Part shown: one piece after another, positions 1 through 42,830 of the stretch
How the letters are laid out: each line of letters begins with the position of its first letter
Position numbering within the stretch: position 1 is the first letter of the stretch
IMG/VR virus record: IMGVR_UViG_3300010413_000068
Span: 1-42,830 of that record
Strand: one strand, 5' to 3'
DNA length: 42,830 nucleotides
Origin: a virus
Made by a program: the position numbers and the translations under genes
The notes under the pieces: generated by a model
What the model was told of the DNA's origin: nothing
Databases searched by the model: none
The model's input: only the letters and a program-made list of their open reading frames with translations

Positions 1-144
1 ATGCACCTACAGTCTGAATACAAGGCTATCAACTTCAGACGTGCATTGACGGAAAATGTCAAGTGTCCGGAAATTCCGGATAGTTACCCGAGCCTTACCG
101 TTTACAACGCCGCAAAGCTGTTACGCCTTCCGAAATGGATGCGC
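1..144. repeat. Direct terminal repeat, left copy
   Basis: Bases 1-144 are identical, base for base, to 42687-42830. The repeat lies inside an open reading frame that is continuous only if the two ends are joined. It is either a genuine terminal redundancy of a linear phage genome or the overlap left by assembly of a circular or circularly permuted molecule. Sequence alone does not distinguish these. Confidence 0.98.
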
Positions 145-8719: not shown

Positions 8720-9169
8720 TTAGTGCTTGTGGGACAGTCTTTTAACTTCTGTTCTATGAAACAGGTTACAGAACGCAATAACTTTGGGGTCGTTGCGGAT
8801 TTCAAGCCATTCAGGATCATCACATTTTTGATCCATCGCGTGAAATAGAAATTGTACAGCCAATCTTTTGTCAATCTTCATTTGTAAACCTCCGCAATGA
8901 AGCGTCAAGCACGAAAAATCAAGATTTGCCCCGCGCAAGTTGGCACCGCACAAGTTGGCACCGCACAAGTTGGCACCGAGCAAGTTGGCCTCGAGCAAGT
9001 TGGCACCGCACAAGTTGGCACCGAGCAAGTTGGCACCGAGCAAGTTGGCCTCGAGCAAGTTGGCACCGAGCAAGTTGGCCTCGAGCAAGTTGGCACGTAC
9101 TCCTCCTTCATCCTTATTTATCCATTTTTTGTGAAGGTTAAGAATTTCTCTGAGCTCTTTGTTATTCAT
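8720..9169 (-). CDS. Pentapeptide-repeat protein, 149 aa
   Basis: After a 23-residue N-terminus come eleven full A-N-L-x-x pentapeptides (about residues 25-85), mostly [10 protein letters not shown] or ANLCG, which build a right-handed quadrilateral beta-helix. The C-terminal part ([20 protein letters not shown] and beyond) resembles the helical tail seen in other phage and anaerobe pentapeptide proteins. Some family members protect DNA gyrase by mimicking DNA, but most have unknown targets, and this short repeat tract gives no direct support for gyrase. It is coupled to the XRE regulator gene by an ATGA overlap. The repeat units are nearly identical in DNA, which implies recent expansion. 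Confidence 0.88.
8931..9096. repeat. 15-bp tandem DNA repeat encoding the pentapeptides
   Basis: The unit AAGTTGGC followed by seven variable bases (ACCGCAC, ACCGAGC or CTCGAGC) recurs every 15 bases about eleven times. Units are identical or differ at one to three sites, far more alike than the protein function needs, so copy number has probably changed recently by slippage or recombination. It is not a CRISPR array, because there are no spacers of differing sequence. Confidence 0.92.
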
Positions 9170-9369
9170 GATACATCTCCTCTTGTTTCAGCTTCGATCT
9201 GTTCAAGCACCACCATGTACGGACCGGATGGTACTTGCTTGTCGTTCTCCCAGTTACTTAATGTCGCAGGCTGCGGAAACGTGCCCAGCTTCGCGTAAAT
9301 GGCTAAGGCAAGGCTGGACTGTGTCCACCCATTCCGCTCCCGCATTGCTTTGATCTCTGACCCGGTCAT
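9166..9369 (-). CDS. XRE/Cro-type helix-turn-helix regulator, 67 aa
   Basis: The whole protein is a single HTH domain: [18 protein letters not shown] (4-21), then the recognition-helix region [13 protein letters not shown] (35-47), as in Cro/CI-like regulators. It has no C-terminal cleavage or oligomerisation domain, so it resembles Cro or a small antirepressor-regulated repressor. It is the first gene of the leftward cassette and faces a divergent promoter region with dyads at 9426-9443 and 9485-9495, its most likely binding sites. It should control its own operon and the start of the late or rightward genes. Confidence 0.85.
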
Positions 9370-11983: not shown

Positions 11984-12108
11984 CCCCGACATACGCAGAT
12001 GATCCAGAGCGTTCACTGTTCAAGCTGATCTTCAAGGTGCTCGGTCTGGTGTTCGTGGTTATCGTAGCGGCTATGTCGCTGGTGTACTCGATATTGTGGT
12101 TTGCGTAG
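11980..12108 (+). CDS. Single-span membrane protein, 42 aa
   Basis: ATG 11980 overlaps the previous stop and the frame ends at TAG 12106-12108. An acidic N-terminus (TYADDPERS) leads into a hydrophobic span (IFKVLGLVFVVIVAAMSLVY). The site GGAGGAAGAGAA precedes the start. A single-span peptide just before terL could be a pinholin-like or accessory membrane protein, but nothing specific supports that. Confidence 0.62.
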   Translation: MTPTYADDPERSLFKLIFKVLGLVFVVIVAAMSLVYSILWFA

Positions 12109-12119
12109 GAGTAGTTAGT

Positions 12120-13640
12120 GTGCGGATGTTCGCTTACATACTGGTGTTTGCAATGTTGACCGCTTCTGACATGGCGTTAGCTGCCATAGAGAACACGATC
12201 AGCAAGACTCGTCCGTGGCGTTCGTATCAGCCACATGCGAAGCAGCTCCAGTTTCATCAATCGAAAGCACACGTCCGCTCCATTTTGGGAGGTAACCGAT
12301 CAGGTAAAACGCGTGGAGGAGCGCAAGAAGCCGTCTGGCATGTTACTAATGAGCACCCTTACCTGAACGTATATGTACCTGAAAAACGCCCACAACGCGG
12401 GAGGATTGTTGGTGATGCAGGCGCGCTTGAGGCAATATCAGGGTATTTGCACGAGCTGCTTCCTGATCTGATGGTAGAGGTGCAGCGTAAGGGGCGCACA
12501 TGGGATTACTTCTGGCGTATCAGGCGGGGCGGGAAGGTTGTTGCTGAATTTGATCTCATGACTTATGACCAGGACGTAAAGCAGTTCGCTTCAGTCGAGC
12601 TTGACTGGTGCTGGTTCGATGAACCGCCTCCCCTGGCAATATGGCGTGAGACATGGCTCAGGTTCGCTACTTCACCCTATCCGAACATATGGGTGACTAT
12701 GACACCACTCATGAGCGCGGGATATTACATAGACGAAGTAATTGACAATAAAGACATTTACAGCGAAGAGTTCTATGTAGCGATCACAGATAATACGTAT
12801 CTGCCAAGATCAACTGTTGATACCATTATCGCAGGTATACGAGATCCTGATGAATACGAGGCCCGTGTGAATGGAAGGTTTAAGGCTCTTATGGGTCGTG
12901 TGTTCAAGGAGTGGGACAGGTCAATACACGTAATACCCGAGGATGATGTGGATATGTTGTTGCGTGACCGTACACCCGCTGTGTCCTGCTTCCTTGATCC
13001 TCATGACCGGAAGCAACCTGCCGTTGTATGGTTCGCAACGTTCCCCGGACCGGTAGTGGTTGCCATAGACTGCTTGCCAATCATACCGTGGGATGAAGTT
13101 CGGTCATATACTGGTGGTGCTGTAGGTGTCGTAAAGATGATCGAGGAGCGTGAAAAGCAGTTTGGTTACAGGACTGTATATAATGGCATGGACCCGAAGT
13201 TCGGCGCACAACACAAACTAAACTCAGATGTTGACGTACAGACGCTCTACAGGCGCGCAGGTCGGTCTTTTACGCTTGCCCGGGTGAAAGACCTGCAAGC
13301 CAGGCATACGGCGATCAGGGGGCTTTTAACACCGGGAATCAGTGGATATCCTGGTTTGTTGGTGTCCTCGAGGGCTCGAAATGTAATCAAGTCGTTCGAG
13401 CGGTATGTATGGAAAGAGTCCAAGAACCCTGAAGATCCTGTTTCGCAGCGTGTGGTTGAGGTATGGAAAGACTTCATCGACTGCGTGGGATATATGGCTG
13501 TTACGCAAAAGGACTACGAAAGCGGATACGAAGAGATGGTACAGGCTGCTTACGAAGCTAAGATGAATGAATATAAGAAAAACGAGCCTGATTATTACGA
13601 GGCTTTGACGGGTGGTTCGGGAGGGGATCGGAGACGGTGA
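12120..13640 (+). CDS. terL: Terminase large subunit (packaging ATPase and nuclease)
   Basis: A 506-residue motor protein. Walker A GGNRSGKT lies at 57-64 and Walker B ending WCWFDEPP at about 163-170. MTP near 194-196 is a plausible coupling segment. The nuclease domain begins near FLDPHD (about 291-296), whose Asp is the expected metal ligand. It drives DNA into the prohead and cuts it. GTG 12120 has an AGGAG site eight bases upstream, but this start adds a hydrophobic, signal-like N-terminus (MFAYILVFAML) that is odd for a terminase. ATG 12171 would remove it and may be the true start. Confidence 0.93.
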   Translation: MRMFAYILVFAMLTASDMALAAIENTISKTRPWRSYQPHAKQLQFHQSKAHVRSILGGNRSGKTRGGAQEAVWHVTNEHPYLNVYVPEKRPQRGRIVGDAGALEAISGYLHELLPDLMVEVQRKGRTWDYFWRIRRGGKVVAEFDLMTYDQDVKQFASVELDWCWFDEPPPLAIWRETWLRFATSPYPNIWVTMTPLMSAGYYIDEVIDNKDIYSEEFYVAITDNTYLPRSTVDTIIAGIRDPDEYEARVNGRFKALMGRVFKEWDRSIHVIPEDDVDMLLRDRTPAVSCFLDPHDRKQPAVVWFATFPGPVVVAIDCLPIIPWDEVRSYTGGAVGVVKMIEEREKQFGYRTVYNGMDPKFGAQHKLNSDVDVQTLYRRAGRSFTLARVKDLQARHTAIRGLLTPGISGYPGLLVSSRARNVIKSFERYVWKESKNPEDPVSQRVVEVWKDFIDCVGYMAVTQKDYESGYEEMVQAAYEAKMNEYKKNEPDYYEALTGGSGGDRRR

Positions 13641-15326: not shown

Positions 15327-17123
15327 ATGCCATACCAGCAGCAGACAGAACTTGAAGAGAAATACCAGAAGCTACTGCAACGTGCGCAGGAACAGCAGCG
15401 TCTGTTTGCTGTCGTGGCTGAACAGGCCCGTGAGTTATATGGTGGGCATCCAGAGATAGCCCTTTCTGCTCGTGCTCCAAGTTCGCACAACAACTTGTTT
15501 AAGAAAGCTGTAAAGATCATCAGAGGAAAGGCCATTCAGGGAGAACCATCATGTCGTGTCGTTCCTCGTGGTGAAATCTCGGAAGATGCGGCAACAGTAG
15601 CGTCAGAAAAGATAAGTTCAATATTTTCATCACAGTCTGTATATCCTCAGATAGCGCAGATTTCTACGGATACACTGTTGTGTTCGGGTGGTTACGCGAT
15701 GATCCATGAGGACAGGCACGTAGAATACCTGAACTGGTTTGATGTATTTCCTGACAATGCGCTTGGATGCAGTGCTGACCTGTCAAAGGGAAGGTATCTG
15801 TTTATCAGGAGACTGGTTGATGCTGCTGAGTTTTGGGATACATATGAAAAAAGACTGAAAGAGCTTGGATACAAAGATGAAGAATCTCTTCCACGCGCCA
15901 CAAAGGTGATGGGCCGCAGAATCGTGGGAGTAAATTCTACACACACGCTGTCCGGTGTGTTTGAAAAGAAAACAGTTTCGTATATCACAAATGTGTTCGG
16001 AAATCCAACATATTGGGAGTATTCGTCAACACAGCCCGACCTTGACGGACTGGTAGCTGAATGGGAGTGTTTTGTAAGGGATTCTGTGGACGATGAAACT
16101 GGGTTGCCTCGTTGGAGCCGTGTGTTAATGTTCGAGGACTATTTCCTTGAAGATCCTGAAGATTTGCCTTCAGTAATGCCCGGACCAAATGTAGCCTACT
16201 TCCCGTTTGATTTCCTGAACGGACAGGTTTATCAGCCGTCTTTGTATGTTGATGTTATCAGGAACCAGGCTTCATATAATTGGATCAATAGCAAGACGGC
16301 GCAGATCCTTGCAAACCTTGACAACCCTGCACGTAAGTTCCATAAGGACGATACACAGGCAGTGAAGAAATGGTGGAATAACCCGGGCGAGGATCTTGCA
16401 TTAGATCAACCTACACTATTCGAAATGATAGACCAGCCCGTACCTCCTCCTATTTATGAGGAAATAAAGGCAAGTATAAAAGAGGATGCGTCCGAAAACA
16501 CTGGGGTTACTCCTGCCACACAAGGGATCTCTCCCAGCGAAGACTCCAGCGGTATAGCTATCGAAAAGCTGCAACGCTCAGCCGAGGTGTTCTTTGAGTC
16601 ATTCCTTACATCTCGCGACGAGTTCTTTACGGATGTTTGCCGATGGATACTGTACTTTGAAGTTCTGGAGAATCCACAGGAATATAATGGAATTACTCCG
16701 CAAGCTGTCATGAAAGATGCCGTATTCTCGTTCAAGCTGGTTCCAAAGCTGGGACGTGAAGAGAAAATGGCGCAAACACTTTCTGGGATTACAGCGGCTA
16801 CAAATATGCTTGTCGGGACCATTCTTGAAACTGATCCGATAGCTCGTATAGACTTGGCAGGTACGTTGACTGGAAACACGAAAGAAGCAGATGAGCTTAT
16901 AAACAAAGTTAAAGAATACATGAAGGCAGCTCAAGATGCTTCAAAACAGCAACTTGCAGAGCAGCAAAATATAGAATCAGAAATGGCTGACGAAGACCAG
17001 GAGCGAGCCATTGAAGAGAAATTCATTGATGCGGAGATTGAATCACAGAAAAAAGAGCAGGACCAGGAGTTTCAGCGTGAACAAGCGGCTGTACAAGGCC
17101 AGCAAAAGACCGCAGGGAGGTAA
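15327..17123 (+). CDS. Portal protein
   Basis: A 598-residue protein downstream of terL and upstream of the scaffold, the normal place and size for a portal. Helical N-terminus, then a mixed core with features seen in podovirus portals: VEYLNWFDVFPDNALG (about 130-145), RYLFIRRLVDAAEFW (about 154-168) and a DUF-type stretch near 390-430 (NTGVTPATQGISPSEDSSG). The C-terminal 80 residues are a Q/E/K-rich helix, like the barrel region of P22-type portals. It would form the dodecameric DNA gateway. The call rests on position, length and general pattern. Confidence 0.82.
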   Translation: MPYQQQTELEEKYQKLLQRAQEQQRLFAVVAEQARELYGGHPEIALSARAPSSHNNLFKKAVKIIRGKAIQGEPSCRVVPRGEISEDAATVASEKISSIFSSQSVYPQIAQISTDTLLCSGGYAMIHEDRHVEYLNWFDVFPDNALGCSADLSKGRYLFIRRLVDAAEFWDTYEKRLKELGYKDEESLPRATKVMGRRIVGVNSTHTLSGVFEKKTVSYITNVFGNPTYWEYSSTQPDLDGLVAEWECFVRDSVDDETGLPRWSRVLMFEDYFLEDPEDLPSVMPGPNVAYFPFDFLNGQVYQPSLYVDVIRNQASYNWINSKTAQILANLDNPARKFHKDDTQAVKKWWNNPGEDLALDQPTLFEMIDQPVPPPIYEEIKASIKEDASENTGVTPATQGISPSEDSSGIAIEKLQRSAEVFFESFLTSRDEFFTDVCRWILYFEVLENPQEYNGITPQAVMKDAVFSFKLVPKLGREEKMAQTLSGITAATNMLVGTILETDPIARIDLAGTLTGNTKEADELINKVKEYMKAAQDASKQQLAEQQNIESEMADEDQERAIEEKFIDAEIESQKKEQDQEFQREQAAVQGQQKTAGR

Positions 17124-18328: not shown

Positions 18329-19429
18329 GTGGCAGTTAATAACGTAACGATTGATTTTAACCGGTTGGAGACGTTCCATCCCGCCGAGCGTAGCCCGGAA
18401 TTGATGGACATTTACTTCTCCGCCTATCCCACAGCAGCCATTTTTTACAAGGTTGCTATGGCTGGTTCACTCGATGCTGCGTCACAAATGAAAGATTGGG
18501 CTAACAACTTCATCCATGGAAGGGTGTCGACAAAGTCTAATCTGTTCGGTGGTCGCGGTACATACGAGTCTCCGGTTTTATTCAGTCCTCTGTCCGGTAC
18601 TACAGATGGTTCTGGTGTCAATCCCATTACCAACTCTCCAGTACAGGCATATACCAAGGCGCGTTGGGATCTGAACCGCAAGTATACCCCCGTAGCTCTT
18701 CCGAGCGATGAATGGGGAATGGCTCAGGCGATTGGCGACTCAGTAGAACGTGGTGTCGTATCCATGAACCTGATGACTTCCGCATTTGGGAATGCGTTCA
18801 AGACTCATCTTTCAGCGATCAACTCCGACCTGATCGGAACAAATACCAGCTCAGAGGCTGGCGTTCTGTCCCTGATTGCTGGTTTTGGTACAAGTGCAAC
18901 TGAAACAGGTACATACGGAAACATTTCTCGTTCATCCATTACCCAGTGGCGTTCAAACTACGACACGGGTACCCTGGCTAACTGGATCACCAACACCTCC
19001 GCAGATTTCTGTGTGTCGATCATGGGTGAAATGGTAGATACAGTCCAGGCAAATGGAGCGAACCTGAACGATCTCCTGTTTATCATGGGATCTGATACGT
19101 TCCGTGGGTATCGTAGAAGTTTGCAAGGTCTTGGTACTACAAACAGTGCATATTACAGGTTCGATGCCGATAGTGGTCGTAAGATCCCTCATGCGGAACT
19201 TTACTACTCTGGCGGAATCCCTGTAATCCACGATCCTAACCTCACCGCAAAGCGTGTGTATCTGATTGATACGGCTACCACGTACCTGATCGGTGTATCC
19301 GGCAACATCTTCAAGCTCTCCGACTGGAACTTGAGCGAGAATGCAACGCAGGAATGGGCGCGTTTGCATACGTTCTCCAATGTTGTCATGACGAAGCCCA
19401 ACAACAACTTCTACTACCTGACCACATAA
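18329..19429 (+). CDS. Major capsid protein (probable)
   Basis: A 366-residue protein beginning at GTG 18329, directly after the scaffold gene. It has the expected size, a mixed alpha/beta make-up rich in S, T, N and A, and the spaced aromatic pattern of HK97-fold shell proteins (for example IMGSDTFRGYRRSL and AELYYSGGIPVIHDPN in the second half, similar to A-domain and P-domain strands). The fold cannot be proven by eye. Position after the scaffold and before a small capsid-associated protein makes this the best capsid candidate. The gene has a hairpin over its ribosome-binding site. Confidence 0.82.
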   Translation: MAVNNVTIDFNRLETFHPAERSPELMDIYFSAYPTAAIFYKVAMAGSLDAASQMKDWANNFIHGRVSTKSNLFGGRGTYESPVLFSPLSGTTDGSGVNPITNSPVQAYTKARWDLNRKYTPVALPSDEWGMAQAIGDSVERGVVSMNLMTSAFGNAFKTHLSAINSDLIGTNTSSEAGVLSLIAGFGTSATETGTYGNISRSSITQWRSNYDTGTLANWITNTSADFCVSIMGEMVDTVQANGANLNDLLFIMGSDTFRGYRRSLQGLGTTNSAYYRFDADSGRKIPHAELYYSGGIPVIHDPNLTAKRVYLIDTATTYLIGVSGNIFKLSDWNLSENATQEWARLHTFSNVVMTKPNNNFYYLTT

Positions 19430-19441
19430 GGAGGGTTTGAC

Positions 19442-19933
19442 ATGAGTTACAACAACAAAGCTAACGAAACCCTCGTTGCAGGAATCTACAAGTCTGATTC
19501 ACAGCGTGGTGAAACTCTCCCCTTTACCATCACAACCGCAAGCGATGGAGATATCAGTGCGGCAAATGTTGCCGCTGCACAAGTCGCCTGTCGTTTGACA
19601 AGTGATGGTCAAGTGACCAAGGAAGCAAAAGGCGCAGCTATCGGCGATGCCGAGCTGATGGGTTTTGTTGACTTCCTTGATCCGTCTGGAGCTATCGCGT
19701 TTGTTCAGACAAAGGCTGGTTCTGCAATGTGGTGCGCATACGAAACCGCCAACGCTCCTGTTGTTGGTAGTCGTGTGCAGATGTCCACAACTACTGCAAT
19801 CTTCGGAAAGGTCCGTAAGTCAATCGCAATCCTGAGTGAGGATGAGTTTGCTGCTGGTGCCATGACGCCACGCTCGAACGTTTGTATCCAGCTCAATACC
19901 GCGAACGAACTTGCGTTGATCCTGCTTCTGTAG
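19442..19933 (+). CDS. Putative capsid decoration or cement protein, 163 aa
   Basis: It starts 12 bases after the capsid stop with an AAGGAGGGTTTGAC site. The sequence is rich in A, T, V and G with alternating strand-like segments, no charged tails and no membrane span, as in phage decoration proteins that sit on the capsid surface. A GC-rich hairpin follows the gene. The function is inferred from place and composition; no family motif is visible. Confidence 0.6.
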   Translation: MSYNNKANETLVAGIYKSDSQRGETLPFTITTASDGDISAANVAAAQVACRLTSDGQVTKEAKGAAIGDAELMGFVDFLDPSGAIAFVQTKAGSAMWCAYETANAPVVGSRVQMSTTTAIFGKVRKSIAILSEDEFAAGAMTPRSNVCIQLNTANELALILLL

Positions 19934-19962
19934 TCAACTTTGCGGCTCAGGCCGCGATAAAA

Positions 19963-20010
19963 GGCGTGGCGGGGTCAAATTCCTCCCGGCCCCGCTGCGC
20001 TGCACTTTTT
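19963..20010 (+). terminator. Strong hairpin after the capsid genes, probable partial terminator
   Basis: GCGTGGCGGGG (19964-19974) pairs over all 11 positions (two G-U) with CCCCGCTGCGC (19990-20000). Loop of 15 bases, then TGCAC and TTTTT at 20006-20010. The U-tract is five bases away from the stem, so termination is probably incomplete. A smaller GCGGC-TCAG-GCCGC hairpin (19942-19955) precedes it. It could reduce transcription into the large modification enzyme relative to the capsid proteins. Confidence 0.65.
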
Positions 20011-20045
20011 AAAACGGGAGGAAAAGGTTTGGGAGGAAAGAGAGA

Positions 20046-22121
20046 ATGATGAATCTTACAGGTGCAGTTTACCATTCGTTTAATCCGTTTCTACTGCCTA
20101 AAAACGCAGTGGTAGTAGATATTGGCGCGTGTGTTGGAGGCTTCATTGAGCGTGTAGCTGAAAACGGAGCTTGCCGTATCTTTGCGTATGAACCTAACCG
20201 TAAAAGTGCAGAACACTTGCGTGATACTTACGGCGACAAGATCACATTGAAAAACGTTGCTGTCGCAGGAAAAAGAGGGAAGGCCAAGTTCTACACCTAT
20301 GGCGAAAACTCGATGAGTGAGAGTGATTCGCTGTTTCGCAGGGATGATAGTTGGTTAGCCAGGGAGAACGAATCCTACGAGGTAGATGTTATTTCTCTTA
20401 ACACGGTGCTTTCAAAGCATGATGAAATTGATCTCCTGAAGATTGATGCAGAAGGTGCCGAGTACGAAATGCTGAAAACGGTTCACAAGCCAAAACTACG
20501 CAAGGCACGTCAGATTATCGTTGAGTTTCATGGAGCACATCTTCAGCATTATGAAAGCCACGAGTTCGGGCTGGATGAAATCCAATGGGCCGTAAACAAG
20601 ATTATTGGAATGGGGTTCACGCTTACGGCCAAGAATCCACAGTTACATGAGTATACGTTCATTCGTGACGATGTTGAAATACCACAGATCGCTGTCTATA
20701 CGGCTATTATTGGTGATCGTGATTATCTGTCAATTCCTCATGTAAGACCAGACAATGTTGATTTTATTTGCTTTACTGACAGGGATGATTTGCAGGATCA
20801 TGGAATATGGCAGATTGTACAAGTAGCAAAAGAAGATCATGAACCATGTCTTCATGGTAAAATGTTCAAGATGTATCCCTGGGAATATCTTGAGGGATAC
20901 AAGTACAGCATGTGGATTGATGCTAACCTGCAAATTACAGGGCCGATTATAGAGCAGACGTTTAGAGAGATGGATAATACGGACGACATGATCGTGTACA
21001 AACATCCCGGATGGGACTGCATCTATGCTGAAGCCGAAGCAATCAAAGCCATGAAACGTGCTGATTCTGACTCCATAGACAGGCAAATTGCGGCCTATAA
21101 GAAAAGCAAGTTCCCTGCTGAATGGGGAATGTCGGATAATGGAATGATCTTTCGAAAGCATACTAAGCGTTTAAAGAAACTTATGTCTGCATGGTATCGG
21201 GAGACGTTTAAATGGGGGAACTACAGGGATCAGATTACGTTACCCTATGTGCTGTGGAAAACAAAGACCGACATTACCAGAATTGAAAGACCGTACAGGA
21301 CTTCTCCTGATTTGGTGGCACAGCTTTCCCATGTAGACAAAATGGCAAAACCTCTTCTTCTGTTGTTGGTTCCCCTGTGGAATCCCGAAGGTGACTGGCA
21401 TTTTAATTTCCAGCTTGTTCGTAATGAACTTGCTAAGAAATATACAGTTATAGAGATACCGAAAAGTAAGGCTTATCTGTTCATGGCCTGTAATGAATTG
21501 CTTGGGGCGAAGGGTCCGCAGTTCAGGGACATTAAGCCGTATCAGAATCCGGACTTCTTTCTTGCCAGCCAGTATGATAAATTGATCTGGTATGAAAACG
21601 ATATGTACTTCGATGATCCTAAAGACGCTTTACGCATGATCGAGCGTATGGATGAAAATAAGGTCGATATACTTTCAGCTACTTATGTTCATTCAGGAGA
21701 AGTACTTACATACAGCGTATGGAATGAAGAGGTCAACTACAATGTAAAGGTATTCGATCCCCCGCAGGGAGATGATCTTGTAGAGGTATCCGCCGTTCCT
21801 CTCGGGTTTACAGCGATGCGACACGGCGTTTTTGAATCCATGACTTACCCGTGGTTCAGCCCGGAGGTGGTCATTGATACATTGGGTAAAATAGGTCATG
21901 TAGGTCATGATATAGCGGTTTCTAACAGGATACGCAGGGCAGGACACAAGATGTACATAGATCCAACTGTACGGCCTGCACACATCAAGAAAACGTTCTA
22001 CAGGGTTGGAGATAGCCAGAGAGAACGTAACGCTGTTCGGGAAAACGTTGCAGAGTTCCTTGAAAAGCAGGAATGTGACGGTCTTGCCGAAGAAGTTAGG
22101 CGCATGAAGGAGCTTACATGA
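20046..22121 (+). CDS. Three-domain FkbM methyltransferase / DUF616 / GT-A glycosyltransferase fusion, 691 aa
   Basis: Residues 1-205 are an FkbM-type SAM methyltransferase: VVDIGACVGG (23-32) for SAM binding, AYEPN (47-51) and LLKIDAEGAE (130-139), the family signature. Residues about 215-425 match DUF616-type glycosyltransferases: AVYTAIIGDRDY (216-227), ICFTDRDD (241-248) and SMWIDANLQI (288-297), whose acidic pair resembles a DxD metal site. Residues about 435-650 are a second GT-A-like domain with LIWYENDMYF (513-522) and GHDIAVSNRIRRAG (620-633). The gene lies between capsid and connector genes and overlaps the next one (ATGA), so it is part of virion assembly. It probably glycosylates and methylates a phage structural protein or a host surface glycan. 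Substrates are not visible. Confidence 0.85.
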   Translation: MMNLTGAVYHSFNPFLLPKNAVVVDIGACVGGFIERVAENGACRIFAYEPNRKSAEHLRDTYGDKITLKNVAVAGKRGKAKFYTYGENSMSESDSLFRRDDSWLARENESYEVDVISLNTVLSKHDEIDLLKIDAEGAEYEMLKTVHKPKLRKARQIIVEFHGAHLQHYESHEFGLDEIQWAVNKIIGMGFTLTAKNPQLHEYTFIRDDVEIPQIAVYTAIIGDRDYLSIPHVRPDNVDFICFTDRDDLQDHGIWQIVQVAKEDHEPCLHGKMFKMYPWEYLEGYKYSMWIDANLQITGPIIEQTFREMDNTDDMIVYKHPGWDCIYAEAEAIKAMKRADSDSIDRQIAAYKKSKFPAEWGMSDNGMIFRKHTKRLKKLMSAWYRETFKWGNYRDQITLPYVLWKTKTDITRIERPYRTSPDLVAQLSHVDKMAKPLLLLLVPLWNPEGDWHFNFQLVRNELAKKYTVIEIPKSKAYLFMACNELLGAKGPQFRDIKPYQNPDFFLASQYDKLIWYENDMYFDDPKDALRMIERMDENKVDILSATYVHSGEVLTYSVWNEEVNYNVKVFDPPQGDDLVEVSAVPLGFTAMRHGVFESMTYPWFSPEVVIDTLGKIGHVGHDIAVSNRIRRAGHKMYIDPTVRPAHIKKTFYRVGDSQRERNAVRENVAEFLEKQECDGLAEEVRRMKELT

Positions 22122-23041
22122 ATTTAGCCGAAATGCGTAACGAGTTTGATTATTGGCGCGCCGAAATCAACGGCTCTCCAACTTTCGATACCACTTTGAA
22201 GGATTTCTGGCTCCAGAAGGCTCAGAAGCGGATTACAAAGACGTACGCAACATACATGAAAACAAAGGTGATCGCTTCAGCCGCTCAGGTGACGGAATAT
22301 CCTCGCGCTTCGGTCCTTCCCACCCTGGCCTCTGGTGAGGTGCAGGTTGGGAGGCCGAGCGTTCAGTTTGCAAGAGGAAATTCTGCCGCGATTACGAGTG
22401 TTACAGATGTTGGTGGTGATGCTACGATAAATTCAGCGGCTCATGGACTGTCAGATGGAGATATTATCCAGATTTTCGATAGCTCCAATACTACCAATCT
22501 TGCCAACGGTCGTTATACGGTAGATGCCTCAGCAACCAACACATTTGAAATACTGGATTCAAGTGGATCTACGGTTGCCTATGTAGGTGATGCTACTGGG
22601 GTTTGGATGGAAGAGGGGACGTATGTTCGTCATCCATTAAACTTTGTTCGCTGGCAGGACGTACAGGACATATTCTACAACCAGATATATCCACCATCAG
22701 GAGATGCTCCTGCTGGAACATTGTGGTTGTCATGGATTGTCCAGAGCGAAAATCTCCCCGCTGTAGGTACGGATCTGGCGGAAAACATCATTCCCGAACA
22801 GCTACAGGAGCATGTCCCATTGCTTGCGGCTCGCCTGGCGGCAGCATCGAGTGAGGATACACGTTTAGAGATATATGAGCGTGAATGGGCTCGTGCTCGA
22901 TCGGAACTGGAAGAGTACAGGAAAATGAACTTCCCTGAAGAACGTGTCATGCGCGGATCTTACAAGTTAGTAGACGGGGTATTTTCCTATCGTAACCAGA
23001 CGGACCGGGCTTTCATCTTTGTTCCTAACGGGTGGATATAG
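22118..23041 (+). CDS. Head-tail connector / tail adaptor protein with E1-FCCH-like insert, 307 aa
   Basis: Helical N-terminus (AEMRNEFDYWRAEI) and C-terminus (LEIYEREWARARSELEEYRK) flank a central beta domain. The helical frame is that of podovirus adaptor proteins binding the portal. The central segment (about 89-150) has the pattern of E1-FCCH-like phage beta domains: INSAAHGLSDGDIIQI then NGRYTV and TNTFEI. It follows the glycosyltransferase gene with ATGA coupling. Assigned as connector by position and helical pattern. A tail-tube A-type role is the alternative. Confidence 0.68.
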   Translation: MNLAEMRNEFDYWRAEINGSPTFDTTLKDFWLQKAQKRITKTYATYMKTKVIASAAQVTEYPRASVLPTLASGEVQVGRPSVQFARGNSAAITSVTDVGGDATINSAAHGLSDGDIIQIFDSSNTTNLANGRYTVDASATNTFEILDSSGSTVAYVGDATGVWMEEGTYVRHPLNFVRWQDVQDIFYNQIYPPSGDAPAGTLWLSWIVQSENLPAVGTDLAENIIPEQLQEHVPLLAARLAAASSEDTRLEIYEREWARARSELEEYRKMNFPEERVMRGSYKLVDGVFSYRNQTDRAFIFVPNGWI

Positions 23042-23043
23042 GC

Positions 23044-23745
23044 ATGAAAGATAAACTTGCTATGATACTTTTCGCAGGTTTCCTGTTGCTGGTAGCAGCT
23101 ACTACACAGCAGGAATCCTGGACCGCGCTTAAGAATATTGCTCAATATGCGCAAGGTTCAGAAACGCGCATGAACCAGGATGGTCTTGAATATAATTTTG
23201 GTGCCATAGACGCAAGTGATTTTCTGATCAACGTAAGCCGTGATAGTCTTGAAGAGGACTCAAGCTACTATTTTGACGGAACATTCGATAGTCTTCTAAC
23301 CTATTATTCAAAGCCGTACTACATCGGTGGAAAGCTAAATATGACAGGAGGGCTACAGGCATTGGCTTCGCTTGTGGTTCCTACCGGACAGGATTCGTTC
23401 GTTCTTGCTGCCGTGTATCTTGAATATGGTACACAGTATGGAACGAAAAAGCACTGGCACGGGATACTTGATACCTTGATTACGTTTGGAGACAGTACTG
23501 CAAATGGAACTGCTGTAAGATCTAATATTTATAATAATATGGAAATGTTCAGTACTGCGCTTGATGCTTCAGACACAACCTATGATGGAATACAGACATA
23601 TTCGAATATTGTTAGATTTGTAACCGTATGGCCTGATTGCAATTATGTTAATCTTGGCTCTAATGGCATACGCAAGGGTGGATATGTAAATGCCACAAAT
23701 GTACGTCTAACGGGAGGAATAGTTGCCATGGATTCAGCGAGGTAG
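23044..23745 (+). CDS. Secreted or membrane-anchored beta-rich protein, 233 aa
   Basis: ATG 23044 is used; a GTG at 23032 in the same frame overlaps the preceding stop and is less likely. The N-terminus is a clear signal peptide (MKDKLAMILFAGFLLLVAAT), with a cleavage point plausible near 23-25. The rest is beta-rich, S/T/N/Y-rich and without enzymatic motif. A protein for export between connector and nozzle genes is unexpected, because tail parts assemble in the cytoplasm. It may be surface-exposed on the infected cell, or the hydrophobic segment may serve in the virion. Confidence 0.68.
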   Translation: MKDKLAMILFAGFLLLVAATTQQESWTALKNIAQYAQGSETRMNQDGLEYNFGAIDASDFLINVSRDSLEEDSSYYFDGTFDSLLTYYSKPYYIGGKLNMTGGLQALASLVVPTGQDSFVLAAVYLEYGTQYGTKKHWHGILDTLITFGDSTANGTAVRSNIYNNMEMFSTALDASDTTYDGIQTYSNIVRFVTVWPDCNYVNLGSNGIRKGGYVNATNVRLTGGIVAMDSAR

Positions 23746-31303: not shown

Positions 31304-31867
31304 ATGAAAAAGCTGTCAATTGCGGTGCTTGTCTCTTTGCTGACTGGCATTCTTGCTGCGCAGCCGATCACTCAAGCTCCTCCGGTGACGCTGACACCAC
31401 TTTCCAGTGCAGGGAGTGTTGTGTCAATGCAGAACCCAACAGAGAGCATTGAGGACTCTGTCCAGCAAACTACTGTAGATTCAATTTGGTTTGCATTTCC
31501 CAACAATGGAGCTAGTCCGCTAGTATTAGGCTATCCTACGTTGTTGGTTAAGCCTAAAGCTGCGATGACGTTGAAGATTTGGGCTTTCCCGTGTAGTGGA
31601 ACGTATCAGAACCAGTTCAGTACAAATGCGCAGATAACTCTTGTTCAGCGAAAAGTGTTTGATGCAACTGGTACAGCGGACTCCCTTGATCTTTGTGATC
31701 TTACTTCTGGCGTAAGTCTTGCCGCAAACACGGAATATCAGTTTGATTTCGATACGTGGAAAAGCGGTACATCTCATCCATGGGGACCATGTTGGGGGTT
31801 CCTTGTAAAGTTTACGAAAACAGACGCTAACACTGAAGCGTGTGATTTTTCCATGTATATTCAGTAG
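31304..31867 (+). CDS. Protein with signal peptide, beta-sandwich-like, 187 aa
   Basis: It begins with a textbook Sec signal (MKKLSIAVLVSLLTGILAAQ; cleavage after A18 or A19 is plausible). The mature part is S/T/P-rich, beta-like, with three cysteines spread over the C-terminal half. It is the first of four consecutive genes whose products carry export signals. It may be a fibre-associated or secreted binding protein. No family is recognised. Confidence 0.68.
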   Translation: MKKLSIAVLVSLLTGILAAQPITQAPPVTLTPLSSAGSVVSMQNPTESIEDSVQQTTVDSIWFAFPNNGASPLVLGYPTLLVKPKAAMTLKIWAFPCSGTYQNQFSTNAQITLVQRKVFDATGTADSLDLCDLTSGVSLAANTEYQFDFDTWKSGTSHPWGPCWGFLVKFTKTDANTEACDFSMYIQ

Positions 31868-31879
31868 GGAGACCAAGCC

Positions 31880-32155
31880 ATGAGGAAAGTACTACTGATG
31901 GTATTTAACGCCATTATGTGCTTTAGCGTGTTTCTGTATATCAAGACCTCGCAGTTCAATCCGGGTCTTGTTCCTCCGAACACGTACAATTCTGTACGGT
32001 ATAACGTGGCAGAGGATTCTGTAATGGTATCGTTGAAACACGCTACGGCTGATTCACAGAGAACTGTTTACCTGAAGAACCCTACGATCAAGGTACTTAA
32101 CGCCAAGCAGGCGCGAAAGTTGGGAGTGAGCCCGTCATGGACTACTGGAGAATAG
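31880..32155 (+). CDS. Small membrane-anchored protein, 91 aa
   Basis: Residues 1-22 are a hydrophobic signal-anchor (VLLMVFNAIMCFSVFLYI). The remainder is polar, beta-like, with no cysteine beyond the anchor. The start has a GGGAGACCAAGCC site. The short interval after it (32156-32180) contains CTAGT-TTT-ACTAG, a weak hairpin. The function is unknown. It lies between two secreted-type proteins. Confidence 0.65.
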   Translation: MRKVLLMVFNAIMCFSVFLYIKTSQFNPGLVPPNTYNSVRYNVAEDSVMVSLKHATADSQRTVYLKNPTIKVLNAKQARKLGVSPSWTTGE

Positions 32156-32180
32156 TACTAGTTTTACTAGAGGTGCATAA

Positions 32181-33809
32181 ATGCGACAAAGATTAGCCAT
32201 ACTTCTAGTGGCGTTGCTTTCATCGGTTGCGTTCGCAGCCAGCTACAACGTAAGCACCACGGAGGCAACTTCTGCCGCATCTGGCGGAAAGGTGATCTAC
32301 AGCCGGGCAGATATAGACTCCCTGACGGGTGGACTTGTTGCTGCCGAGGATATCATCTGTTTGTGGGCGAACGGCCCGAACGGGTGGTTTACGGATGCCC
32401 GTAGCGCAGGTGACTTTTCGGTAGGGCTTGGCGCAGGTGTTTATTCGATCCGCGCATTCGCCGATACGCTTAAATCCCGTTACTTAGATGGAGCAACGGA
32501 TTACGATACGGTTGTCGCTGCGTCCCGTGATTCATTTGACGTTGGTACTACCGGGATTACGTGGGTCGCTTTGGTTCGTGCATGGGACAAAGACAGTACG
32601 GTTTATGATAACCAGTTTCCTCAGATTGTGTCGTGTTTAGAACTTGGTACTGCTGGTTATGAAATGCGTGGTTATGAGCTGGATGTTGGAGCGGCTCGTC
32701 TTGGAAACTTCCAGGCTTTGCTTGATGGATTAAGCAGCGTAAGTTCAACTATTAAATTCCCTGACTGGCATTGGCATGTAGTTACGGCATCTTTTAAGGA
32801 TGTAGCTGCGGCTGGGGGAGATAGTGTGGGGATATCTGTTGACGGTGAAGCTGTTGTATGGGGAACGGGAAACTACAATGGAGATGGGGATCAGACCATA
32901 GCTTTTGGCCAGCGGCCAACTCCGTTAGCTACTACTTACGGCCTATGGGAGATGCCGTTCGTTTTCGCATACAGGGGAATACTTCGCGGCACAGCAAGAG
33001 ATGCCGTATATGACAGCCTGATCTCGGTTCTGGATGGAACAGACGACTTTTTGAACCCGCACCCTTCCGCAGGGATACTTGTTGCTGATGATTCGTTGGT
33101 GGTGGCTGCTGGTTCCTATTGCGGTCCCATCACGTTCATAGACTCTTCATTGTCCATGATCGGAGCCGGTCCGGACAAGACCATCTTTACGGGATCACAG
33201 CTTCCTGCAGGCTACGATATGATTTCCGTTGGAGCCGGGGTCACACTTACCGCTGATTCTTTTCAGGTATACGATGGACCCCAGTACGGTTTAACCGTAA
33301 GTGGTTCCGGAGCACAGATTTACGCATCACATATACTTGTGGACAGTTGCTCTACTGCTGACATTTATTTTGTAGAAACCAATCCTGCCGATAGCAGCTA
33401 CCTGGAAAACATGACCGTAAACCTGTCTCCGTTTGGATTATTGACTAACGGATCAGATGATAGCGGAGAGGTTGTCATTATTAACAGTCTGTTCTCCAGC
33501 AATACGAAAGATCTTGCCGGACAGGACGGAAGCAACCTGAATGTATTCTATACCGGGTTCTACAGTTCGATAGATACCAGCGGAATTACCACAGCGAGCA
33601 ACCTGTACGCTGTAACGCAATATCCATATTACGGAGCAGGATTTTACCTGTCATGGTTCGCCAAAGCAACGAACGGAGTTCCGCTGAAGTCTGCTTCTAA
33701 TGGTGGCCTGTATATCGGTGCTTTCCCGGCTGCTGGTGGCACACCGAGCATACCATGGTTCGGGACAGGTCCATGGGGGAATCCACTAGCTGAACCTTGG
33801 AGGGATTAG
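32181..33809 (+). CDS. Secreted-type receptor-binding or fibre protein with LamG-like and beta-helix domains, 542 aa
   Basis: A Sec signal (MRQRLAILLVALLSSVAFAA, A-x-A cleavage) starts the protein. Residues about 115-275 look like a concanavalin/LamG sandwich: WHWHVVTASF near 200, then a strand with GDSVGISVDGEAV. From about 290 to 500 repeated short strands with N/D/S turns (LVVAAGSYCGPITFIDSSLS, LTADSFQVYDG) suggest a right-handed beta-helix, as in tailspikes. This would bind or degrade a surface glycan, and an adhesin function for the infected cell is possible. The signal peptide is unusual for a tail fibre. Confidence 0.66.
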   Translation: MRQRLAILLVALLSSVAFAASYNVSTTEATSAASGGKVIYSRADIDSLTGGLVAAEDIICLWANGPNGWFTDARSAGDFSVGLGAGVYSIRAFADTLKSRYLDGATDYDTVVAASRDSFDVGTTGITWVALVRAWDKDSTVYDNQFPQIVSCLELGTAGYEMRGYELDVGAARLGNFQALLDGLSSVSSTIKFPDWHWHVVTASFKDVAAAGGDSVGISVDGEAVVWGTGNYNGDGDQTIAFGQRPTPLATTYGLWEMPFVFAYRGILRGTARDAVYDSLISVLDGTDDFLNPHPSAGILVADDSLVVAAGSYCGPITFIDSSLSMIGAGPDKTIFTGSQLPAGYDMISVGAGVTLTADSFQVYDGPQYGLTVSGSGAQIYASHILVDSCSTADIYFVETNPADSSYLENMTVNLSPFGLLTNGSDDSGEVVIINSLFSSNTKDLAGQDGSNLNVFYTGFYSSIDTSGITTASNLYAVTQYPYYGAGFYLSWFAKATNGVPLKSASNGGLYIGAFPAAGGTPSIPWFGTGPWGNPLAEPWRD

Positions 33810-33811
33810 AT

Positions 33812-34492
33812 ATGAAGAGATGGATTCCGTGGCTTGGTTTATCCTTGCTTATTCTGTGCGGATCATGGGGTGGTGGTATGATCGCAACCTCGTGGCTAGT
33901 CGAACTCAACCAGAACGGAGTGTTGTATCTTGGCGGTGCAGACCCGGGTTCTGTTGACAGCACGGACTGGCGCATCCGCGATAACGGTTCTGATAGCCTT
34001 GTCATTGAACGCTACAACGGAACATCCTGGATCGTGATGCACGGAGCTGACACGAACGGTCCATTGACCGAGCACGGTGAACTTTACGCCTATGGAAACG
34101 CTACGGCAACTACTATAGCGGCTGCTGACTCATACCATACCGTTACTATTCTGGACAGTTCGGCTTCTCTGATAGGGTTTACAGCTGAGGGTGACTCTGC
34201 TCTAGTTGCTGATGCTGACATACAGGGATCTGTGTTTGTATCATGGAGTCTTTCTGCTTCCGCTGCTGCTGCGAACAAAGAGTTTCATGTGGTCGTATTT
34301 GTAAACGATACGGAGATAAATTCCACTGAACAATCTATCAATATCACGGTTACGGCTGCAAGATCAATCTCCGGGTCTGGCATCATCGATTCGATAAGTT
34401 CAGGAGATAAGATTACGCTACGCATTGAAAATGTTACGGATGACTCGAACATAACGATAAGCTACGGCGGATTCACACTTGTAAAGATATAG
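33812..34492 (+). CDS. Fibre-like protein with signal/anchor and TNF-like C-terminus, 226 aa
   Basis: The ATG at 33812 starts a basic then hydrophobic segment (KRWIPWLGLSLLILCGSW), a signal or anchor with a cysteine near residue 16 that could fit a lipoprotein. Residues about 30-85 resemble the short beta repeat of phage fibre shafts. Residues about 115-226 have the strand pattern of trimeric jelly-roll (C1q/TNF-like) tips: GSVFVSWSLSA, EFHVVVFVNDTEI, SGDKITLRIEN and NITISYGGFTLVKI at the very end. A probable trimeric receptor-binding tip. Confidence 0.62.
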   Translation: MKRWIPWLGLSLLILCGSWGGGMIATSWLVELNQNGVLYLGGADPGSVDSTDWRIRDNGSDSLVIERYNGTSWIVMHGADTNGPLTEHGELYAYGNATATTIAAADSYHTVTILDSSASLIGFTAEGDSALVADADIQGSVFVSWSLSASAAAANKEFHVVVFVNDTEINSTEQSINITVTAARSISGSGIIDSISSGDKITLRIENVTDDSNITISYGGFTLVKI

Positions 34493-34854: not shown

Positions 34855-35550
34855 ATGATTGCAACCATTATTAAGGCTATCGAGTGGGTAAAAGGCCACT
34901 GGAAGCTATCACTATTGATCCTTGCGGCTGTGTTGGTGGCCGCGTTCCTGTTGTTTCGATCTAAGCCTGCTGCTACTGATCCTGTGCCAGCAGCTCCTGA
35001 AATAGAACAGGAGACCCATGACGAGGTTGAAACCACCAAACAGGACAGCACCGTCAAGGAGTCCGGCCACAAGACGAAGGTGAAAGTAACGATCCCGCCG
35101 AATACCGTAGTTGGACCCGATGAGCCTTTGATAGTGGAAGTAGAGGTTCATGATACCACACGACAGACCACTGAACCTATCATCACGAAAAAGCACCGGA
35201 TAGATTCCAGTACCCGCTACAAGCCCGAGACGATCGTCAAGCAACCCACATCGACAGGCCCGGTACTGTCAAACCCCAGTGAAGGTAACTCACAGAATGA
35301 TGGAGTTTTCGGGCTCGTGGTCGGTGCGGGATATTCTCCAGCTCTTCCCTTGGGCCTTGTTGGTGCTTATATTAGACCATACGGCAGGATATACCTTCAC
35401 GGAGGCGTAGGTGCAGGATATCACCTTGACAACGAGACTGCTGAGGTCCGTGCCTATGTAGGCGTAGGTGTCCGTGTCTGGAAAGGGTTGCTGTTGTCAG
35501 CCGGGTACGATGGGTCGTATCTGGTTAGTGTTGGGTGGAGGATAGACTGA
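34855..35550 (+). CDS. Putative envelope-spanning (spanin-like) protein, 231 aa
   Basis: The ATG 34855 follows GGGAGGAGAC. One hydrophobic span (about 15-36, KLSLLILAAVLVAAFLLF) anchors the protein in the inner membrane. Residues about 40-150 are a long polar, P/T/E/K-rich linker. The last 80 residues (from GLVVGAGYSPALP) are glycine- and aromatic-rich amphipathic beta-strands, like a piece of an outer-membrane barrel. An inner-membrane anchor, a periplasmic linker and outer-membrane-type strands would let it bridge the envelope as a spanin does. Known unimolecular spanins are lipoproteins with a C-terminal TM segment, so this layout would be different. Confidence 0.55.
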   Translation: MIATIIKAIEWVKGHWKLSLLILAAVLVAAFLLFRSKPAATDPVPAAPEIEQETHDEVETTKQDSTVKESGHKTKVKVTIPPNTVVGPDEPLIVEVEVHDTTRQTTEPIITKKHRIDSSTRYKPETIVKQPTSTGPVLSNPSEGNSQNDGVFGLVVGAGYSPALPLGLVGAYIRPYGRIYLHGGVGAGYHLDNETAEVRAYVGVGVRVWKGLLLSAGYDGSYLVSVGWRID

Positions 35551-36227
35551 TTAGTAATAAATTAGGTCCATTTAAGCTCAACGAGATTTACTGCTGCGAT
35601 TGCCTTGAGGCGATGAAACAACTACCGGAAAATTGCGTGGATGCTATTGTGACTGACATACCATACGGAGAGGTGAATAGGAAAAGTAATGGATTGAGAT
35701 GTTTAGATAAAGGTTTGGCTGACATTGAAACTGTTAGTTCTCTAGATATGTCTATAGAGTTCTGTAGAATTTCAAGGGGATCAATTTACGTATTTTGCGG
35801 AGCCAAACACATAAATGAGATAAGAGAAATTTTTATATGTAATGAATTATCAACAAGATTTATAGTTTGGGAAAAAACAAATCCGTCTCCAATGAACGGA
35901 GAACACATCTGGTTATCTTCTATTGAGTGGTGTGTATTTGGTAAAAAGCAAGGAGCAACATATAATGGATTTTGCAGAAGTGTTGTGTTGAGACACCCCA
36001 GTGGAAAAAGCAATATTCATAAAACAGAAAAGCCAATTTCTCTTATGAAGGATTTGATTGTAACAAGCACAAACAAAGACGATATCATCCTAGACCCTTT
36101 CGCTGGTTCCGGAACCACATTGGTAGCAGCTAAGGAACTTGGGAGACAGTTTTTAGGATTTGAAATAGAGCCAAAATATGTAGAGATCGCACAGCGTAGA
36201 CTGGCTCAAGAAGTTTTTGCATTTTAA
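35535..36227 (+). CDS. DNA N6-adenine / N4-cytosine methyltransferase (beta class), 230 aa
   Basis: Motif IV reads DIPYGE (41-46), an unusual variant of DPPY. HKTEKP lies at 162-167 and the SAM motif LDPFAGSGTT at 186-195. Motif IV before motif I marks a beta-class enzyme (N6_N4_Mtase, PF01555). No restriction partner is nearby. GTG 35535 overlaps the previous gene by 16 bases but lacks a good upstream ribosome-binding site. GGAGG at 35537-35541 would better serve a start at CTG 35547 or ATT 35550, so the true start may be non-canonical. It lies between two lysis-type genes. Confidence 0.85.
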   Translation: MEDRLISNKLGPFKLNEIYCCDCLEAMKQLPENCVDAIVTDIPYGEVNRKSNGLRCLDKGLADIETVSSLDMSIEFCRISRGSIYVFCGAKHINEIREIFICNELSTRFIVWEKTNPSPMNGEHIWLSSIEWCVFGKKQGATYNGFCRSVVLRHPSGKSNIHKTEKPISLMKDLIVTSTNKDDIILDPFAGSGTTLVAAKELGRQFLGFEIEPKYVEIAQRRLAQEVFAF

Positions 36228-42666: not shown

Positions 42667-42830
42667 TAACCTACGAGTTTGGCGCGATGCACCTACAGTC
42701 TGAATACAAGGCTATCAACTTCAGACGTGCATTGACGGAAAATGTCAAGTGTCCGGAAATTCCGGATAGTTACCCGAGCCTTACCGTTTACAACGCCGCA
42801 AAGCTGTTACGCCTTCCGAAATGGATGCGC
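42663..42830 (+). CDS. Small protein of unknown function, 5' part of a gene crossing the contig ends
   Basis: ATG 42663 overlaps the preceding stop. The frame is open to the end of the window and continues at bases 145-168 after the repeat, giving 63 residues in total. It starts ITYEFGAMHLQSEYKAINF and contains a conserved-looking central region with P, S and Y. No family is recognised. The same protein's 3' end is listed at 1-168. Confidence 0.8.
   Translation, partial: MITYEFGAMHLQSEYKAINFRRALTENVKCPEIPDSYPSLTVYNAAKLLRLPKWMR
42687..42830. repeat. Direct terminal repeat, right copy
   Basis: Identical to 1-144. Joining the copies restores one reading frame across the junction and links the early promoters near 41900-42100 to the early genes at 165-8379, so these form one operon. 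Confidence 0.98.

Follow-up and report, generated by a model that had tools for sequence, protein, structure and literature searches.

Cluster O mycobacteriophages (Corndog, Firecracker) encode an O-methyltransferase and three glycosyltransferases between the portal and capsid protease genes (PMC4351075). Two later articles, citing Freeman 2023, report that these head-operon enzymes modify the capsid and tail tube (PMC11600133, PMC12363180), and the second also describes Che8 and Myrna as phages whose own glycosyltransferases glycosylate their virion proteins. The 42,830-nucleotide stretch of viral DNA analyzed here, which we call the window, covers positions 1 to 42,830 of IMG/VR virus record IMGVR_UViG_3300010413_000068 and resembles the cluster O arrangement in having a methyltransferase and several glycosyltransferases within a phage head operon. 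The cluster O enzymes, however, are separate genes lying before the protease gene, whereas those of the window are fused and lie after the capsid gene. The families differ as well, being TylF-type methyltransferase, GT2-like, and GT25-like in cluster O as opposed to FkbM, DUF616, and phrog_1574 in the window. A comparison of the window protein with Firecracker gp33 to gp36 gave no significant match, and we rejected homology to the mycobacteriophage enzymes for lack of significant similarity. What the window shares with mycobacteriophage-type virion glycosylation is thus the placement of glycosyltransferase genes near structural genes and not homologous enzymes; the likeness to Che8 and Myrna would be one of phage-encoded virion glycosylation.

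Because an identical 144-bp direct repeat occupies both ends of the window (1 to 144 and 42687 to 42830), the record is probably a complete genome. Its head genes run from a terminase large subunit (12096 to 13640, + strand; phrog_2, E = 6.5e-21) through a P22-like portal protein (15327 to 17123, +; Pfam P22_portal, 1.5e-12) to the major capsid protein (MCP; 18329 to 19429, +; PHROGs major head protein, 7.5e-11). A 163-residue gene follows (19442 to 19933, +), its product giving no family or PDB match in Pfam, PHROGs, or the PDB, and then the enzyme gene (20046 to 22121, +), which is preceded by the Shine-Dalgarno (SD) site GGAGG. The stop codon of the enzyme gene overlaps the start of the next gene (22118 to 23041, +) in the sequence ATGA at 22118 to 22121, bearing out the ATGA overlap noted when the DNA was first read. 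That next gene is a probable head–tail adaptor by position, as sequence searches including Pfam and PHROGs gave no match that would prove an adaptor or connector; the gene at the corresponding place in ctSlx955 matches SU10_adaptor. The original placement of the enzyme between capsid genes and a connector therefore stands insofar as the MCP and one small gene lie upstream, whereas the names "decoration protein" and "connector" derive from position only.

The 112-nt gap between the small gene and the enzyme gene (19934 to 20045, +) contains 7-bp and 14-bp GC-rich hairpins followed by two purine-rich, SD-like runs, and its predicted RNA fold has an energy of −43.1 kcal/mol (z = −1.5). The structure is clear, and a possible function is that of a partial terminator or attenuator between the capsid genes and the enzyme. 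The gap and the 14-bp hairpin indicate that the enzyme gene is coupled to its downstream neighbor and not to the capsid genes. Expression of the enzyme may thus run below that of the capsid and together with that of the neighbor. Elsewhere in the window, 11 tandem copies of a 15-bp unit lie at 8931 to 9096 and are read as amino-acid repeats in the ORF at 8897 to 9298. Several ORFs of the tail region (23032 to 23745 and 31304 to 34492) have N termini resembling Sec signals or membrane anchors, which is odd in virion proteins. A gene for an N6/N4 DNA methylase occupies 35535 to 36227. Between 37000 and 42000, both GC and AT skew change sign, which suggests that this part is transcribed leftward and is poor in long ORFs.

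The 691-residue protein is predicted to combine, in one polypeptide, a class I SAM-dependent FkbM-type O-methyltransferase and two GT-A glycosyltransferases, in the order FkbM, DUF616/TOD1-MUCI70, phrog_1574. Its Pfam and PHROGs matches are far above chance, upholding the claim of a methyltransferase and two glycosyltransferase-like domains in one gene. The sequence-only reading had drawn the second and third domains too narrowly, at residues 216 to 297 and 513 to 633; rebuilt profiles place the three domains at about residues 19 to 162, 214 to 414, and 438 to 649. Domains 2 and 3 were folded singly and domain 1 was assigned from sequence profiles; a MAFFT multi-domain alignment for a whole-protein fold put partial sequences onto the wrong domain. 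The three folds and active sites that had been expected are recovered in the form of predicted GT-A folds for domains 2 and 3 and a profile match to a solved structure for domain 1, with family-invariant catalytic residues retained in all three (alignments of 40 sequences for domain 2 and 17 for domain 3).

Domain 1 (20100 to 20579, +; about residues 19 to 178) is a predicted FkbM methyltransferase. The Pfam Methyltransf_21/FkbM family (PF05050) matches residues 25 to 170 with an E-value of 2.2e-18 and 67.4 bits, against a curated cut-off of 22.7, and phrog_8156, a methyltransferase family, matches residues 8 to 180 (E = 3e-18). The FkbM profile in turn matches the solved FkbM structure 2py6 (E = 3.5e-17). 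Both the SAM motif DIGACVGG (D25, G27), with E49, and the signature LLKIDAEGAE (D134/E136/G137/E139) are present, the latter at residues 130 to 139 just as originally reported, and the family-invariant residues G27, E49, D134, and G137 are retained.

Domain 2 (20685 to 21287, +) matches Pfam TOD1_MUCI70 (PF04765, formerly DUF616) over residues 248 to 408, with an E-value of 4.2e-18 and 66.2 bits against a cut-off of 21.4, and the glycosyltransferase family phrog_26101 over residues 217 to 407 (E = 8e-17). Its motifs are WID at 290 to 292, E329, and RDQ at 394 to 396, and across 40 sequences K275, D292, E329, and R394-D395-Q396 are invariant. An AlphaFold2 (AF2) model built from those 40 sequences has a pLDDT of 90.8. 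Foldseek aligned it with GT6 enzymes, among them alpha-1,3-galactosyltransferase and the blood-group A/B transferases, with E-values near 1e-6 and TM scores near 0.5, and the nearest viral model in BFVD is a Cellulophaga phage glycosyltransferase (TM 0.85). Profile, invariant residues, and modeled GT-A fold thus agree on a predicted TOD1/MUCI70 glycosyltransferase.

Domain 3 (21357 to 21992, +) matches phrog_1574 over residues 432 to 650 (E = 1.4e-17). In place of the DxD motif it has E517-N-D519, followed by PWF at 602 to 604, D622, and H646. The sequence ENDM stands where DSDI is usual and H621 where glutamate is usual, with D519, D622, and H646 still present; D519, P602-W603-F604, D622, and H646 are invariant across 17 sequences. 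The AF2 model from these 17 sequences has a pLDDT of 77.6 and aligns in Foldseek with many GT-A enzymes at E-values of 5e-8 to 1e-6, TM scores of 0.4 to 0.5, and high rmsd. The phrog_1574 profile, the (D/E)xD-PWF-D-H residues, and the modeled fold together mark domain 3 as a predicted GT-A glycosyltransferase. Mnn9, GalNAc-T2, COLGALT1/LH3, and Mimivirus R699 are among the structural matches, and several of the matched enzymes act on proteins, although at such distance this says nothing certain about the acceptor.

Profile scans of viral contigs found the order FkbM-DUF616-phrog_1574 in the window only. One of the closest likenesses is a gene in two uncharacterised IMG/VR contigs, L343 (3300017605_000811) and L359 (3300025481_000001), which joins FkbM to phrog_1574 as the window protein does at its two ends, with an FkbM part 32% identical to that of the window, but is without the middle DUF616 domain and belongs to a lambda-like head module. 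It lies after the MCP gene and before the tail genes: the order in L343 is terminase, portal, protease, MCP, a 140-residue gene, the 456-residue FkbM::phrog_1574 fusion, and tail genes, and L359 keeps the fused gene (44% identical to that of L343) downstream of a homologous MCP. One possible origin of the window gene is an FkbM::phrog_1574 gene of this type with DUF616 inserted between its domains. ctkAd229 (MW202691), like the window a P22-like podovirus, has a 425-residue phrog_1574::methyltransferase-like gene between a P22 coat protein (1.5e-31) and a gp4-like adaptor of the P22_Tail-4 type (1e-9); it differs in its reversed domain order, its weakly matched methyltransferase-like part, and its lack of DUF616. 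In Cellulophaga phages phi12:1, phi18:1, and relatives, a gp39 methyltransferase is followed by a gp40 DUF616 glycosyltransferase in the head module, the methyltransferase-then-DUF616 order of the window, but gp39 is a Methyltransf_24 protein encoded separately, whereas the methyltransferase of the window is FkbM and fused. We rejected homology between domain 3 and the C-terminal half of gp40, a part with no phrog_1574 match.

Further loci extend this picture. Both phi12:1 and contig L060 have a methyltransferase and a DUF616 protein with a C-terminal extension adjoining a minor head protein; between the MCP and head–tail adaptor genes of contig L056 lie genes for two glycosyltransferases, two methyltransferases (one of them FkbM), and a DUF616::GT2 fusion; ctSlx955 likewise has a cluster of separate glycosyltransferase and methyltransferase genes between the MCP and an SU10-like adaptor; and DUF616 genes lie near capsid or terminase genes in L084 (beside the MCP), L040, and L043. 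Most other DUF616 loci are large glycan clusters of cyanophage-like viruses. Fusions of FkbM to Glycos_transf_1, Glycos_transf_2, Glyco_transf_34, or Mannosyl_trans3 domains recur in viral contigs, where fusions of DUF616 to other glycosyltransferases are common. Very long multi-enzyme proteins of 1217 and 2393 residues with glycosyltransferase and FkbM domains are encoded in viral contigs L285 (5591 to 9244) and L318 (678 to 7859). Methyltransferase and glycosyltransferase genes, separate or fused, thus recur in the head modules of unrelated phages, a statement of presence rather than of excess over chance because head genes make up a large share of such genomes. The sequence-only reading had suggested an unusual virion-modification system, but these fusions and same-slot relatives show that it is not unique in kind, the exact three-domain order apart. 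The window protein is a new three-domain form of an already known habit, the carriage of methyltransferase and glycosyltransferase enzymes in phage head operons.

We consider it somewhat better than an even bet (roughly 55%) that the protein is a late enzyme building a short, methyl-capped glycan, most likely on a virion protein. Its expression would most likely be late, alongside that of the head and neck proteins. One glycosyltransferase domain would attach a first sugar to a virion protein or carrier, the second would extend the chain, and the FkbM domain would cap it by O-methylating a sugar. The tested genes of the window included none for sugar nucleotides, so nucleotide sugars, like SAM, would come from the cell. 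Candidate acceptors are the capsid protein, the 163-residue neighbor, which is a possible decoration protein by its position, and the tail or fiber proteins, and the benefit may be, for instance, changed adsorption, stability, or shielding. That the gene lies in a head operon is not in itself proof that the virion is the target.

The lineage of the window bears on this last point. We found no close relatives of the enzyme, MCP, or portal in viral contigs; the terminase is nearest to those of uncultured podoviruses from Manatee Spring and of Arthrobacter and Microbacterium phages. When 80 viral loci whose terminases are related were compared with a limited set of such methyltransferases and glycosyltransferases, none of their genes matched. 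Behind the capsid gene these loci mostly have fiber-like genes or nothing. That place is therefore a variable cargo slot in which enzymes are rare within this terminase lineage. The proposal of virion modification made by the sequence-only reading is partly supported: the head-module setting, the recurrence of the enzymes, and the cluster O precedent speak for it, and the lack of matches in the 80 loci speaks against it.

If the head operon is a mere cargo slot, the enzyme could instead place a methylated sugar on a host polysaccharide or cell-surface glycan late in infection and so reduce readsorption or superinfection. This is the chief rival, unlikely overall yet deserving the most weight after virion modification. 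It is well established that phages encode glycosyltransferases acting on the surface glycans of their hosts, the slot between MCP and adaptor often holds fiber- or spike-like genes in this lineage, FkbM and DUF616 genes are present in bacterial genomes, and DUF616 glycosyltransferases are also found in glycan clusters. The window gene itself stands in the head module and not in a host-surface locus. Against host-surface action, we noted no transmembrane segment, flippase, or polymerase-type neighbor, the ATGA overlap couples the enzyme to a gene of the head and neck region, and methyltransferase–glycosyltransferase fusions occupy the same slot in unrelated phages. Moreover, the only experimentally studied head-operon cluster of this kind that we found is reported to act on virion proteins.

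A narrower form of the preferred reading, in which the acceptor is a tail fiber, spike, or other appendage instead of the shell and the glycan serves, for example, as a receptor mimic or in adsorption tuning, seems less probable still. It draws on the fiber-like proteins that often fill the slot in this lineage and on ctSlx955, in which several glycosyltransferase genes and two methyltransferase genes between the MCP and an SU10-type adaptor enclose a long repetitive gene of 598 residues. In contigs L312 (1674 to 11531) and L291 (1417 to 13387), similarly, a phrog_1574 glycosyltransferase, a GT4::FkbM fusion, and a gene that is sulfotransferase-like by sequence stand among long repetitive, fiber-like genes, and phrog_1574 glycosyltransferases adjoin baseplate genes in freshwater cyanophages. 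The fiber-like genes of the window, however, lie 9 kb downstream (31304 to 34492), whereas the enzyme gene adjoins capsid and neck-region genes, and L343 and L359 pair their fused enzyme with capsid genes.

That the exact three-domain order occurs in one record only might point to a dispensable or decaying fusion with no fixed role, or to separate genes joined in assembly, but catalytic residues are retained in all three domains, an erroneous joining of three genes needs two lost boundaries, and fusions of a methyltransferase to a glycosyltransferase from the same two families turn up repeatedly, so we give this very little credence. DNA or nucleotide hypermodification yielding glycosylated or methylated bases is the least probable of all: sequence records label the Cellulophaga methyltransferase beside the DUF616 glycosyltransferase a DNA methylase, and PMC11946311 includes it among DNA methyltransferases, but FkbM and TOD1/MUCI70 are sugar and glycan enzyme families rather than families that modify bases, we noted no gene for base modification in the set tested, and the window has its separate N6/N4 DNA methylase.

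Glycan building on a virion protein is thus the reading we prefer, and if it is true, coat modification would be carried out by a single protein that is easy to express and assay. More tentatively, and with the balance leaning against so broad a claim, unrelated tailed phages may repeatedly have placed methyltransferase–glycosyltransferase enzymes, often fused, between their capsid and neck genes, forming a widespread, unrecognized head-linked class that coats virions with methyl-capped glycans and of which the window protein would be a compact, trifunctional form. The recurrence beside the capsid gene suggests that glycan decoration of virions is far broader than the few mycobacteriophages in which it is known, and such breadth would bear on how virions adsorb, how stable they are, and how they are recognized in the environment.
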